DNA from: Bradyrhizobium nivariense
GTDB lineage: Bacteria; Pseudomonadota; Alphaproteobacteria; Rhizobiales; Xanthobacteraceae
Length of the DNA: 64,000 nt
Assembly: GCF_029846715.1 (NCBI RefSeq)
Contig: NZ_JARVWW010000002.1
Span: 310,001 to 374,000 of the forward strand
Direction of reading: 5' to 3'
The notes beneath the pieces are model-generated. The model did not search any database. It had not been told where the DNA came from and saw only the letters and a program-made list of their open reading frames with translations. Positions 27,584 through 33,707 of this stretch are shown one piece after another (the first letter of the stretch is position 1; each line of letters starts with the position of its first letter). Position numbers and translations under genes: made by a program.

Positions 27584-27748
27584 TCAGCCTGATACGGCGC
27601 GCCAGACGATCGGGCCCGTCTCCGGCTGAACCTCGCCAGGCTTGGTATCACCCTTCAGGAGCCGCGCGAGCTCGCGCCGATAGAGCCACTGCCAGCCTGT
27701 TTTAAGGCTGGCGAGAAAGTCGAGCTCCCGTTGTGTCAGTGTGCACAT
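27584..27748 (-). CDS. 54-residue hypothetical protein
   Basis: MCTLTQRELDFLASLKTGWQ at the start and PGEVQPETGPIVWRAVSG at the end. The ATG at 27748 is 33 bases after the DUF1501 stop on the same strand, so it may be the third gene of that operon. WQWLYRRELARLLKGD looks like a helical segment. No clear Shine-Dalgarno is seen (TTCGGG before the ATG). The function is unknown. The internal GCCAGCC/GGCTGGC hairpin is part of the coding sequence. Confidence 0.5.
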   Translation of the reverse strand: MCTLTQRELDFLASLKTGWQWLYRRELARLLKGDTKPGEVQPETGPIVWRAVSG

Positions 27749-29033: not shown

Positions 29034-30491
29034 TCACCTCCTCTGAAAGTCCGCCGACATGAACAGCAGCGCCAGCGCCTGCTGCCGGCTCTCGGCACGC
29101 CCGACCGCCTGCTTCACCTCGGGTGCGATCTCGGACGCAAAGACATCCTCGATGATGATTTGCGGATCGGCCATGCCGGTGATGCGCTCGGCAAAATTGT
29201 TGGCGATGTCGAGCCGCCGGCCGACGCCGTCGATCCAGCTCGCCTCGTCGTCCGGATAGCCTTTGGGCGCGGACGGACGCCACAGCGCCTCGCCGAGCAG
29301 CTCCAGGCCACCGGTGAAGCGGACGGGATCGACGGTCGTGATCCCAGTCGCGCGCACCATGCCAACGCCCCATTCGCTGGGACGCTTGAGTTTTGACGGC
29401 GGCCCGCGCCACGCCTCGTCCGACGACACCATCGCGATCGCGACCTGCTTGAGATCGCCCTCGGTGTCGCGAAAACTCTTCGCCATCTGCTCGATCAGCA
29501 CCGGCGGCGGCTCGTCAGCCACGAAGTGTCGCGCAAGCTTGGTCGCGACATGGGTCGCTGTCGCCGGATGCGCGGCGAGATCGCGCAGCACCGCGCGGCC
29601 CTGCTCGGCATCCTCCTGCTCGTAGCGCTTGCCGAGCACGCTCTGCCCGCCGGGCTCGTGCAGCCGCGGATTGAAGGTGAATTCGCCGCCACGCTGGGGA
29701 TCGAAGCCCGGCGGCACTAGCGTCCAGCCGGTCATGACATTGGCGAAGCTGATCACGTCGTCCTGGGCGTAGCCGGTGCGCACGCCGAGCGTATGCAGCT
29801 CCATGATCTCGCGCGCGATGTTCTCGTTGAGGCCGCGGCTGCGATTGATGCCTGCGATCGAATTCGCGCCCATCGATTCGAGATTGTCGAGATAGAACAG
29901 CATCGCCGGATGGCCTTCGACGGCCTGCAGGAGATCGACGAAGCGGCCGAGCGCGTTGGCGCGAACGGCTTCGCGCTCATAGGCGCCGGACATGCTCTGG
30001 ATCTTGTTGGCCGAGATGCAGAAATGGTTGGACCAGAACCACACCAGCCGCTCGGCGAAGCCGATGTCGGCGACGAGCGCGGCTTCCGTGCGCAGCTTGG
30101 CTTCCTGCAAATACATCGGCCGCCCGGGATCAGGAACGGCTTCGGCCGCCTGCTTGGCCGCCATCTCGGCGGCGTCCTTGTCCTGGCCCTGACCTTGCGG
30201 CTGCGTCTGGTCTTCCGACATCGCCGGCGCAGCCGCCATCTGCTGCTTCTTGGCCTGCTGCTGCGCCTGCTTGGCCCGCGCCGCGCGTCGCGCATTGGCG
30301 TCGGCAACAGTGCGGTAAGCCTTTGCGCTCGCGGGAAGGACGGCGGCGGCGGTCAGCGTGAGCGGCCGGTCGAGCTCGGCGATCAGCGCGCCGCGCGGGT
30401 CGGTGCCGACGGCGGCGATCGATCCCGGCCGCGGCCCCATGCCGAAGCGATGAAGCGAAAGCACAGAATCGGCCTTTGCAGAATTGCCCAT
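29034..30491 (-). CDS. DUF1800 domain-containing protein
   Basis: 485 residues. It begins directly with the DUF1800 start LSLHRFGMGPRPGSIAAVG. Family features are ERLVWFWSNHFCIS, NENIAREIMELHTLGVRTGY, DVISFANVMTGWTL, FNPRLHEPGGQSVLGKRY and RRLDIANNFAERITG. Residues about 65-110 are an Ala/Gln/Lys-rich, probably disordered or coiled insert (KQAQQQAKKQQ and QPQGQGQDKD). DUF1800 and DUF1501 form a conserved two-gene unit of unknown function. Upstream, at 30528-30558, are two tandem boxes resembling the one before the blaI-like gene. Confidence 0.9.
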   Translation of the reverse strand: MGNSAKADSVLSLHRFGMGPRPGSIAAVGTDPRGALIAELDRPLTLTAAAVLPASAKAYRTVADANARRAARAKQAQQQAKKQQMAAAPAMSEDQTQPQGQGQDKDAAEMAAKQAAEAVPDPGRPMYLQEAKLRTEAALVADIGFAERLVWFWSNHFCISANKIQSMSGAYEREAVRANALGRFVDLLQAVEGHPAMLFYLDNLESMGANSIAGINRSRGLNENIAREIMELHTLGVRTGYAQDDVISFANVMTGWTLVPPGFDPQRGGEFTFNPRLHEPGGQSVLGKRYEQEDAEQGRAVLRDLAAHPATATHVATKLARHFVADEPPPVLIEQMAKSFRDTEGDLKQVAIAMVSSDEAWRGPPSKLKRPSEWGVGMVRATGITTVDPVRFTGGLELLGEALWRPSAPKGYPDDEASWIDGVGRRLDIANNFAERITGMADPQIIIEDVFASEIAPEVKQAVGRAESRQQALALLFMSADFQRR

Positions 30492-30527: not shown

Positions 30528-30558
30528 GCTACGAACCGTAATGCTACATATCGTAACA
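30528..30558. promoter_or_regulatory. tandem BlaI-type operator candidates before the DUF1800 operon
   Basis: GCTACGAACCGTAATG (30528-30543) and GCTACATATCGTAACA (30543-30558) share the pattern GCTAC-N4-CGTAA and repeat at exactly 15 bases. A similar GCTACAGATCGTCGCA lies at 33596 before the blaI-like gene. The TAC-N5-GTA symmetry resembles BlaI/MecI half-sites (TGTAG/CTACA). They sit about 37-67 bases before the DUF1800 start. Confidence 0.5.
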
Positions 30559-30652
30559 CTTCGAGTATGACCCTGCAAGCGGAGATTGAGGCGTCGCGTC
30601 CGGATGTCGCGAGCCGCCCATCCGACGCGACGGATGGGCAGCCGCAACGATC

Positions 30653-33172
30653 CTAGAAGTTGGGCCCGAGCGCGATCTTGGTGATCGTGCCGTTCCTGAC
30701 ACCGATCCGCCATTCCGCCGAGCCGTTGGCGAACTGGGCGATGTAGATGTCGCTATCGAGCACGGTGACGCCGCGGAACGAGACCGCACGTAGCGCGCCA
30801 AGCTTCGCCAGGATCGCCTGGTCGAACGGAAGCTGCTGGCGCGTGACGTCGGCGACCTCCGACGTCATGTGCTCGTAGTCGGGCTGTCCCTTGCCGACGC
30901 CCGAGATATAGCGGCGTAGCATCTCCTCGCCATTGGCGATCGGAACGGCGCGGCGCGCGGCGCGCCCCGGCTTTGCGCCGAGGCTCAAAGCCTCGACATT
31001 GTGGAAGCGCGTCTGCCGGCCCGGCACCAGGACCTCGAGGCATCGCCCCGACTTGTCGGCGATCACCCAGGGATTGTTCACGGTGGTCGTGGCAGCCCAG
31101 CTCATGTTGGGCCTGACTACGCTCTGGGACTTGCGATTGCCGTCGGCATCGAGATTGAAGACCCGGATGTCGTCGCCCATCTCGTTGTAGACCATGATCC
31201 GGATCGGCGAGGTGCCGGCGCGGCCGCGCACATTCGCCTCCTCGGCGCAGGAGACGATGCCGCCGAGCTCGTCATTGCCGTCGGCCCGGAAGATGACATC
31301 GCCGGCCTTGCCGTCGGGCTCGAGCAGCAGGCGGAATTCCGCCGTGCCGTTCTCGAACTTGGCGCCATAGATGTCGTAGCCGCCGGGCCCGACGCCGCGG
31401 AAGAACAGCGACTCCACCGGGCCGAGCGCAACGAACGTCGCGTGCGTCTCATCGAGCTGACGGTGGATCTTGGCGGCCAGCGGCGCACTCATCCGGTCGT
31501 AGTTCGGCGTGCCGCTGCGCAGGTCCTCGATCCCGCGCAGGATCATTTCCTTGCCGCCCGCGACCGGAACCTGCTCGCGGAAACGATCCGGGACTTCCGC
31601 GACACGACGCGCGAAGTCGGCTTCGATCGCCTGCGCCAGCGCCGCATCGATCCGCGGCGCGAGACGGGCGCCGAAGACTGCGTTCTGGACCAGCACGCGC
31701 GAGACCTTGGCTTGGTCGTCGCGCAGGAAAATCAGGAGATTGTCGCCATGGATCGAGAAGACGTCGGCACCCTCAGTGAGGAGCGCCGCCCGGCCCTGCA
31801 CGGTTTCCTGCACCTGGAGCCGATCTCCGTCGCGGCGCACGGTGAGCACGCGGTTCGGCGCGACCCTGTACCAGCCGACATATTGATCGAGTGATCCGGA
31901 ATCGGTGGCCGCCGTCGGCATCTCGGCGATGCGAACCGCGCGGATGTCGCGGCCGTTCATGCGCAGCATCAGCTCGGCCGAGCGACGCTCCGCATCGAGC
32001 GGGAACGTGATCTCGCCGGACGAGGCGGGGTAGGACGCGCTGCCGTCACTGCCCACCGTCAGGCGCAATTTGCGCTGCCCGGTGAGCTGGCCGTAAAGCT
32101 CGTCACCTTCGCGGAAGATCGCGAAGACCGAGGCCGGGCCCATGGCGTAGAAATTGACGAAGGGACGGTAGTGCCGGGCCGGCACCTCGCCGAGATCAGC
32201 GACGGCGGACGCAGGGGCCGGCGTGCGATAGGCGATCATGCCGGCGGACACGATCACGACCGGAACGATCGCGGCCGCGATCCACAGCCGCTTGCGCCAA
32301 CCGACCGCGACGGGCATCGCGGCGGCCGCGATGATGCGTTCGACGCGCGCGCGCACGGTCGAGGCCCGCGCCATCGCGAGCTCGACCGGTCGCGGCTTCA
32401 CGCTGCTTGCAAAATCGAGCAGGATTTCCGCGTAGGACAGCCGGTCGTCGATGACTTCGATCGCCTGCGCGTCGCTGATGATCTCGGCGAGTTCGGCAAG
32501 ATGCGCAAGCTGCCACCACGAGAACGGGCTGAACCAGAACACCGCGCGGTTGAGCGCCGCGAGCAGCAAAACGTAGAAATCGCGATTGGCGACATGGGCG
32601 CCTTCATGCGCGAGCACCGCGAGGCGCTTCTTCGCGTCCCAGCCGGCGAATTGCGGCGGCACCAGAATGGTCGAGCCGAACGTGACGGGGCCGCCGATGT
32701 CGCGGCTGACGCGCACGTCGGCGTCGATCATCTGCGGGCCCTTCATCGGCTTGGCCGCGCGCGCCAGGCGCCAGGTCAGGCCGAGGCCGATCGCAAGCCG
32801 CAGCAGCAAGAGACCGGCGACGCCGGCATAGACCACCGTGGCCACCAGCCACCAGTCGATCGAGACGATGCTTTTCACTGGCGGAGCGACGATTGCGCCG
32901 GGCGCGATCGGCAGCGCAGGCTGCGACGTCTCCAGCATCGAGATATCGGCCGGCCACAATTCATCCGATACCGGCACCGACAAGGGCAGCCGGTCGATGG
33001 TGAGCGTCGGCCAATGCATCACGAATGGCATCGCGAGCGAGGCCAAGAGCACGACGACCCACGCCGTCATGTGAACGTGTGGATTGCGCACGCGAAACAG
33101 GTTGAGACCGAACCAGACGACGCCTCCCAGCACAAAGGAGCGCAGCGCCGCCTCAGCCAGAGTTGCGATCAT
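30653..33172 (-). CDS. M56 family (BlaR1-like) membrane metallopeptidase with duplicated C-terminal domain
   Basis: 839 residues. Membrane helices lie near residues 5-25, 38-55 and 107-130, followed by a cytoplasmic zinc protease domain with H189-E-x-x-H193 (LAHEGAHVANRD) and the downstream ELAEIISDAQAIE glutamate. A further helix follows at about 295-315. The large exported C-terminal part contains a module that occurs twice (ending ...GGKEMILRGIEDLRSGTPNY... and ...ANGEEMLRRYISGVGKGQPDY...), separated by a Cys-containing beta segment. In BlaR1 the protease cleaves the BlaI repressor after a signal. Here the sensor is not a penicillin-binding domain. The start overlaps the blaI-like stop by 4 bases. 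Confidence 0.88.
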   Translation of the reverse strand: MIATLAEAALRSFVLGGVVWFGLNLFRVRNPHVHMTAWVVVLLASLAMPFVMHWPTLTIDRLPLSVPVSDELWPADISMLETSQPALPIAPGAIVAPPVKSIVSIDWWLVATVVYAGVAGLLLLRLAIGLGLTWRLARAAKPMKGPQMIDADVRVSRDIGGPVTFGSTILVPPQFAGWDAKKRLAVLAHEGAHVANRDFYVLLLAALNRAVFWFSPFSWWQLAHLAELAEIISDAQAIEVIDDRLSYAEILLDFASSVKPRPVELAMARASTVRARVERIIAAAAMPVAVGWRKRLWIAAAIVPVVIVSAGMIAYRTPAPASAVADLGEVPARHYRPFVNFYAMGPASVFAIFREGDELYGQLTGQRKLRLTVGSDGSASYPASSGEITFPLDAERRSAELMLRMNGRDIRAVRIAEMPTAATDSGSLDQYVGWYRVAPNRVLTVRRDGDRLQVQETVQGRAALLTEGADVFSIHGDNLLIFLRDDQAKVSRVLVQNAVFGARLAPRIDAALAQAIEADFARRVAEVPDRFREQVPVAGGKEMILRGIEDLRSGTPNYDRMSAPLAAKIHRQLDETHATFVALGPVESLFFRGVGPGGYDIYGAKFENGTAEFRLLLEPDGKAGDVIFRADGNDELGGIVSCAEEANVRGRAGTSPIRIMVYNEMGDDIRVFNLDADGNRKSQSVVRPNMSWAATTTVNNPWVIADKSGRCLEVLVPGRQTRFHNVEALSLGAKPGRAARRAVPIANGEEMLRRYISGVGKGQPDYEHMTSEVADVTRQQLPFDQAILAKLGALRAVSFRGVTVLDSDIYIAQFANGSAEWRIGVRNGTITKIALGPNF

Positions 33173-33561
33173 TCTTTCTTCACTCCCCTCGCCTTCTTCG
33201 CCTTGGCCACCTGGTCGGCCAGCGTGCGCAATTGCTGCTGGTCGAGCATCGCATTGTCCACCATGCCGACGAGGACCTCCTCGATCGAGCCGTTGCAGAA
33301 CCAGTCGACGATGCGCTGCACCGCCTTGGCCGCAACCCGCGAGCGCTCTTCCACGGCGTGGTAGACGTAGGTGCGCCCGTCCACGGTGTGGTTAGCATAG
33401 CCTTTTTCTTCGAGCCGGCGCAGCACCGTGCGCACGGTGGATTCCTTCAGACGCCGCGACAGCCGCTCCCGCACGACCTCTGCCGTGACGGGACCATGGG
33501 CCCAAACCAATTGCATGACCTCGTGCTCGAGGTCGCCCAGTTCGGGCAAACGATCGTCCAT
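33169..33561 (-). CDS. BlaI/MecI/CopY family transcriptional repressor
   Basis: 130 residues from the ATG at 33561 (MDDRLPELGDLEHEVMQLVW). It is a winged helix-turn-helix: GPVTAEVVRERLSRRLKEST, VRTVLRRLEEKGYANHTVDG, YVYHAVEERSRVAAKAVQRI, then a C-terminal dimerisation helix. It is transcribed with and coupled to the M56 gene, the normal arrangement of BlaI-BlaR1 pairs, so the metallopeptidase probably inactivates it. An operator-like box lies 35-50 bases upstream. Confidence 0.92.
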   Translation of the reverse strand: MDDRLPELGDLEHEVMQLVWAHGPVTAEVVRERLSRRLKESTVRTVLRRLEEKGYANHTVDGRTYVYHAVEERSRVAAKAVQRIVDWFCNGSIEEVLVGMVDNAMLDQQQLRTLADQVAKAKKARGVKKE

Positions 33562-33595
33562 GGTGGCTACCTGACGGCTTGAGTTTTCTTGTAAC

Positions 33596-33611
33596 GCTAC
33601 AGATCGTCGCA
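33596..33611. promoter_or_regulatory. BlaI-type operator candidate before the blaI-like gene
   Basis: GCTACAGATCGTCGCA matches the box at 30543-30558 at 13 of 16 positions and stands in the same orientation and at a similar distance to its gene. A TGTA-N4-TACA inverted pair (33590-33601) overlaps it. It probably mediates autorepression. Confidence 0.5.
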
Positions 33612-33707
33612 TATACGGCCGCGCCGCGCAACGGCGTTTCCACCTGAAATGGTATCGCCGCGCTGACCTAACGGGGGCGCGTTGCGACGCGCGAGGGCGG
33701 TGCGCTC

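Follow-up and report, generated by a model that had tools for sequence, protein, structure and literature searches.

BlaI-type repressors paired with M56 membrane proteases are readily taken for regulators of beta-lactam resistance, and one such pair in Bradyrhizobium nivariense raises the question of which genes it controls and what it responds to. The pair lies in a 64-kb stretch of DNA (contig NZ_JARVWW010000002.1, positions 310,001 to 374,000; this whole stretch is called the window) beside an operon for DUF1800 and DUF1501 proteins, with all genes of the locus on the minus strand. A preliminary description had proposed that shared boxes place both operons under the repressor and that the M56 protein relieves the repression. 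The sequence comparisons reported here point, very probably, to a proteolytic switch of the BlaI/BlaR1 type whose sensor has been exchanged, with BlaI as the putative repressor of both the blaI-M56 and the DUF1800-DUF1501 genes.

The box GCTAC-N4-CGT indeed occurs exactly three times in the window (30528, 30543 and 33596). Because 0.87 occurrences are expected by chance and three were reached in 4 of 100 shuffles, this number is weak evidence alone, and the weight for the boxes is carried by their placement and conservation rather than by the window count. Direct comparison showed the boxes at 30543 and 33596 to be identical at 13 of 16 positions. The last base of the boxes lies 34 bp ahead of the blaI ATG and 36 bp ahead of that of DUF1800. 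When relatives are compared, a 15-bp near-palindrome, GYTAC-N5-GTARC, describes the operator unit better; the shared orientation that had been pointed out says little alone because the unit is near-palindromic. An additional half-site ahead of blaI (33591-33595) was overlooked in the preliminary description. The operators and predicted promoter elements are as follows.

33626..33631, minus strand: predicted -35 element of blaI, TTGCGC, from direct reading and a conserved TTG, 17 bp ahead of GACGAT
33603..33608, minus strand: predicted -10 element of blaI, GACGAT, from direct reading, inside the dyad
33596..33610, minus strand: operator dyad of the blaI promoter, GCGACGATCTGTAGC, with GCGAC as left half
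33591..33595, minus strand: half-site GTTAC abutting the blaI dyad in the same register
30573..30578, minus strand: predicted -35 element of DUF1800, TTGCAG, from direct reading and a conserved CTTG
30550..30555, minus strand: predicted -10 element of DUF1800, TACGAT, from direct reading, inside dyad 1
30543..30557, minus strand: operator dyad 1 of the DUF1800 promoter, GTTACGATATGTAGC, from sequence and conservation
30528..30542, minus strand: operator dyad 2 of the DUF1800 promoter, ATTACGGTTCGTAGC, abutting dyad 1, from sequence and conservation

The promoters are thus predicted as TTGCAG-N17-TACGAT for DUF1800 and TTGCGC-N17-GACGAT for blaI, and in both the first dyad starts 21 bp after the TTG start of the -35-like element and covers the -10-like hexamer, the place where a repressor would be expected to block polymerase.

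Conservation was followed in 195 genomes of the genus, including that of the window. An M56 ortholog is present in 70 of them (51-100% identity; three more genomes match the first 325 residues only, at 41-44%), and the 54 genomes with a DUF1800 ortholog (71-100% identity) are all among these 70. A tandem consensus of 20 positions was used to score the 120 bp ahead of each DUF1800 gene: 47 orthologs reached 20/20, six reached 19/20 and one (G102) 13/20, while 169 control upstream regions from the same loci (malic enzyme, rlpA, M56 and DUF1501) scored 9-13. Ahead of blaI, the dyad was found at 10/10 in all 70 scored regions (controls 6-8), followed by the extra half-site, as RYTAC, in 65; of the 73 blaI orthologs, G165 (where a separate look revealed the dyad), G098 and G114 were left out of this scoring. 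The operators, whose spacers vary among relatives, are kept at 53 of 54 DUF1800 genes and at every blaI region scored. The locus is also present, for example, in B. barranii subsp. apii 1S5 and B. betae Opo-243. In a second set of 52 loci with the M56 end (from named organisms, apart from one metagenome-assembled genome and unnamed strains), which comes partly from the same genomes so that the two scorings are not independent, the 36 loci with DUF1800 scored 20 (34 loci) or 19 (2 loci), and of the 16 without it 14 scored 18-20 and two are split assemblies. Tandem dyads are likewise found in other genera, at two loci whose DUF1800 proteins match at 70% (L120) and 55% (L121). In G102, blaI is frameshifted and one base is missing from ATTAC at the same place in both operators, leaving the DUF1800 dyads at 14-bp spacing; this may reflect joint decay, co-change or a sequencing error, and was not used as evidence. 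Two apparent cases of a DUF1800 gene unlinked from M56, which would have served as a test in trans, were rejected: in G070 the last 43 bases of the M56 contig recur ahead of DUF1800 on another contig, and in G088 a run of N directly follows M56.

Neither a lack of conservation in relatives nor equal frequency at random sites, two outcomes that the preliminary description named as refuting, was observed: the operator is also rare in the window's own 9-Mb genome. GYTACN5GTARC has five exact sites there, one being DUF1800 dyad 2 and one lying ahead of a small gene, and no recognisable promoter context was seen at the other three. The dyad plus half-site (ACN5GTARCRYTAC) matches three times, at the blaI and DUF1800 promoters and at that of a gene for a 62-residue exported protein, against 32 matches for the reversed pattern; such reversed controls run too high, as different triplets are read in reverse, and we relied instead on the control upstream regions and on genomes without blaI. 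Searching plasmids for the operator region gave no match.

These searches suggest a regulon that extends beyond the two operons first proposed. At the third site of the window's genome, on another contig (L140, C63:151413-151457), three consecutive dyads, the middle one imperfect, precede the 62-residue exported-protein gene, which lies 2.6 kb from recA. A small gene of the QLHDGC type occurs in 13 genomes, all blaI-positive, with dyads detected by pattern in 12 and degenerate in G022. No dyads precede three related small genes that lack QLHDGC, one of which belongs to a blaI-negative genome. In G170 (L152), boxes at 2820 and 3279 (plus strand) place dyads clustered within 0.5 kb ahead of a homolog of the small gene, the box at 2820 being without an assigned gene. 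An S9 peptidase ortholog (at least 70%) is present in 12 genomes, again all blaI-positive. It stands directly behind DUF1501 in two (G122 and G203); in the other ten it is encoded elsewhere, with dyad 1 starting 35-82 bp ahead of the ATG, a full or partial second box and a score of 14-17 of 17. Eleven S9 paralogs (41-43% identity; one in a blaI-positive genome) scored 10-12 of 17 over 250 scanned bp, about 100 bp of which is coding sequence. A serine hydrolase gene of the beta-lactamase fold (PF00144) that also encodes DUF3471 follows an unlinked operator in G179. PF00144 genes further occur behind the operator in the place of DUF1800 (G118) and in the interval that separates M56 from DUF1800, where they share the strand of these genes in G112 and G078 and lie on the opposite one in G031; an open reading frame (ORF) at this position in G202 begins like that of G112.

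The proteins encoded at the locus match the following families.

33169..33561, minus strand: BlaI-type repressor gene, 130 residues, PF03965 at 102.4 bits (gathering score 22.6), with phmmer matches to BlaI/MecI structures
30653..33172, minus strand: M56 protease/sensor gene, 839 residues, PF05569 and DUF3471, overlapping the end of blaI
29034..30491, minus strand: DUF1800 gene, 485 residues, PF08811 at 376.4 bits, above the gathering score
27781..29037, minus strand: DUF1501 gene, PF07394 at 100.1 bits, above the gathering score, overlapping the end of DUF1800

The repressor stays below the cut-off of the NCBIfam CopY_TcrY model (73.6 bits against 121.95), and its translation holds a single Cys and no C-terminal CXC. 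The M56 protein (PF05569 at 54.5 bits against a gathering score of 31) carries the motifs H189EGAH and E230IISD, 41 residues apart like H201 and E242 of Staphylococcus aureus BlaR1, and also keeps D198; all three are invariant across 28 aligned sequences, the window's included. In its ectodomain, Pfam gives DUF3471 and no transpeptidase family. A structural model of this part (mean predicted local distance difference test score, pLDDT, 77.7; predicted template modelling score 0.50) matches, at M56 residues ~335-510, residues 343-520 of the D-aminopeptidase 1ei5 (Z 11.8, root-mean-square deviation (rmsd) 5.7, 158 aligned, 15% identity), and at residues ~646-733 (window ~30974-31237, minus strand) it resembles the pVHL beta domain (Z 10-11, rmsd 1.8-2.8, 82-86 aligned). 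The latter piece alone gave no Pfam hit and is a fold match only; it is flanked by two repeats, 39% identical over 84 residues. The full-length model is poor (mean pLDDT 56.2), and its Foldseek list is likewise headed by 1ei5. These modelled resemblances of fold identify no ligand. Foldseek rows for sliding clamps and DDB1 were set aside for their low TM-scores, and three nanobody matches (E 0.22-0.6) from an ectodomain profile search of solved structures were taken as chance. At a more distant blaI/M56 locus (L122), a 254-residue DUF3471 protein is encoded after M56.

Is the BlaI-like protein the regulator that acts at these dyads? Another regulator could govern blaI-M56 and DUF1800 alike, with BlaI acting elsewhere, and the operator pattern does match in two or three blaI-negative genomes; we nevertheless consider this improbable, since the dyads track blaI across genomes. 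Orthologs of blaI (at least 80%, or 92% for the partial copy of G102) are present in 73 of the 195 genomes, with homologs of 66-68% in four more. GYTACN5GTARCRYTAC matches 71 genomes, 69 of the 73 blaI-positive ones and 2 of the 122 others, and the tandem pattern matches 67, with 66 of 73 and 1 of 122. Moreover, blaI retains its dyad even where M56 has been lost (G034 and G165), seven more distant blaI/M56 pairs (L122-L128, blaI 65-70%) each have such a dyad ahead of blaI, and TAC/GTA half-sites are of the BlaI/CopY family type, according to the excerpted text of PMC7253601. A second alternative, similarly improbable, is that the tandem operator acts for the blaI-M56 region or for the 54-residue ORF found behind DUF1501, with DUF1800 and DUF1501 as mere passengers. 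This idea draws on the 16 genomes that have M56 but lack this DUF1800, where the operator scores 18-20 in 14, 15 in G085 and 11, a background value, in G174 (whose M56 holds two internal stops), and where the 54-residue ORF comes next in 13; in G170, the sequence behind the operator reads, by eye, like a DUF1800 remnant. Against it, the tandem stays 16-56 bp ahead of DUF1800 at all five loci at which 1.5-2.3 kb separate this gene from M56 (L051, L080, L084, L090 and L105), and the same operator precedes the unlinked S9 and small genes. 

A true BlaR1-like response, with beta-lactams as the signal and protection of the envelope as the purpose, appears unlikely, if a little less so. The BlaI/M56 pair is there, and in G118, G112, G078, G031 and G179 PF00144 proteins are encoded at the locus or behind its operator, yet these were seen in a few genomes only and are known by fold family, not as active beta-lactamases. 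The M56 protein scores 32.6 bits with the blaR1_generic model (cut-off 400), and beta-lactam acylation is unlikely as the inducing signal because neither an SxxK motif (none follows residue 290) nor a transpeptidase domain was found in the M56 ectodomain. Several observations also weigh against the proteolytic switch that we favour. The searched pattern is absent from four blaI-positive genomes (G034, G098, G140 and G174), and 13 unlinked matches, three of them in blaI-negative genomes (G009, G168 and G184), were dropped as targets for want of a convincing gene (G095, G142, G184, G014, G157:C130, G106, G180, G079, G009, G179:4619027, G170:6887319, G170:7649909 and G168). As 14 of the 16 genomes without DUF1800 still score 18-20, the boxes are not conserved for DUF1800/DUF1501 alone. 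In addition, the promoters are predicted from consensus only, and the genomes are related, so that the counts are not independent trials.

On balance, the near-invariant operators, their co-occurrence with blaI and the same operator at unlinked genes strongly support the earlier proposal that the repressor would control both promoters. In the switch that we envisage, the BlaI-like protein would bind 15-bp GYTAC-N5-GTARC dyads, arrayed end to end as 1.5 to 3 units, and, when bound over the -10 region, repress its own blaI-M56 promoter and that of DUF1800-DUF1501. The 62-residue exported protein would be a third target in the window's genome, to which the regulon of relatives would add the unlinked S9 peptidase and, in one genome, the beta-lactamase-fold serine hydrolase. 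A signal meeting the extracytoplasmic part of M56 would lead its cytoplasmic zinc protease to cleave BlaI, as BlaR1 does, and the targets would then be expressed. The operators with their conservation, the tie to blaI, the candidate regulon members and the protease motifs come from comparison of sequences; BlaI as the binder, repression and BlaI cleavage are suggested by the biology of known systems, as given in the excerpted text of PMC9834060, and that M56 relieves the repression we infer from its retained protease motifs. Tentatively, and with considerable doubt, the place of the penicillin sensor may have been taken by a pVHL-beta-like fold together with the accessory barrels of a serine hydrolase that cleaves D-peptides. 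The M56 protein would then sense a cell-wall or plant peptide, and the hydrolases and DUF1800/DUF1501 proteins under its control would form a movable regulon. If so, rewiring of this regulon would be seen in the S9 peptidase gene, which two genomes carry within the operon and ten carry at another place with an operator copy of its own.

As in S. aureus BlaI-BlaR1 and MecI-MecR1, the repressor is encoded next to an M56 membrane protease and has an operator at its own promoter; its Pfam family and the HEXXH/D/EXXXD spacing of the protease are shared as well. Unlike them, the system has no penicillin-binding sensor domain that we could find, but a DUF3471 double barrel, a doubled repeat and the pVHL-beta-like fold; its targets differ and its half-sites are TAC-N5-GTA rather than of the TACA/TGTA type. 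BlaI_0696 and BlaI_1845 of Clostridium thermocellum, as presented in the excerpts of PMC8457756, likewise have small regulons with two ordered dyads at each promoter, regulate themselves and have BlaR1-like partners, and the half-sites of BlaI_0696 are five nucleotides apart as well, whereas the half-sites there are GTCTAT/GACTAT, the targets are others and a beta-lactam response is discussed. The CopY/TcrY copper repressors belong to the same superfamily and often have two operators with KAC...GT half-sites, but in their consensus RNYKACANNYGTMRNY four bases separate KAC from GT, and CopY has a C-terminal CXC and answers metal rather than a protease (excerpts of PMC7253601). The Ochrobactrum anthropi D-aminopeptidase 1ei5, matched by M56 in residues 343-520 as stated above, differs in its catalytic beta-lactamase-fold domain, which M56 lacks. 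Since BlaI regulons of small size that use ordered double dyads are on record (excerpts of PMC8457756), the kind of system is already known, and what is new here is the sensor, the targets and the details of the operator; a description of this regulon was not found in the literature searched, of which only part of the matching papers was viewed. This BlaI/M56 pair thus combines a clear operator grammar and a small regulon with no recognisable beta-lactam sensor. DUF1800 and DUF1501, which are widespread and of no known function, gain a regulatory context in which to seek the inducing signal, and the tandem operator could be used as a reporter.

DUF1800 and DUF1501 have been described before as sharing an operon, DUF1501 with a Tat (twin-arginine translocation) motif (excerpts of PMC5122149). 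Their description as secreted agrees with DUF1501, which has a Tat-type RR motif near its N-terminus and starts at GTG 29037 or ATG 29031; in DUF1800, a signal peptide is not evident by eye and hydropathy, the only means used. The end of M56 and the start of DUF1800 are 162 bp apart, and the remaining features of the locus are these.

within the window, minus strand: malic enzyme gene, neighbour of the locus
within the window, minus strand: RlpA-like gene, neighbour of the locus
27584..27748, minus strand: 54-residue ORF behind DUF1501, a conserved ORF in relatives

The 54-residue ORF gave no Pfam match when searched with a relative's copy (in L044). Its pairwise differences among relatives number 28070, 24513 and 39712 at codon positions 1, 2 and 3, position 3 being the most changed. 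Finally, three unlinked operator sites (L148, L155 and L158, in G157, G180 and G106) have in common a CTCGACTTG-type upstream element and their box layout, and the genes downstream differ.

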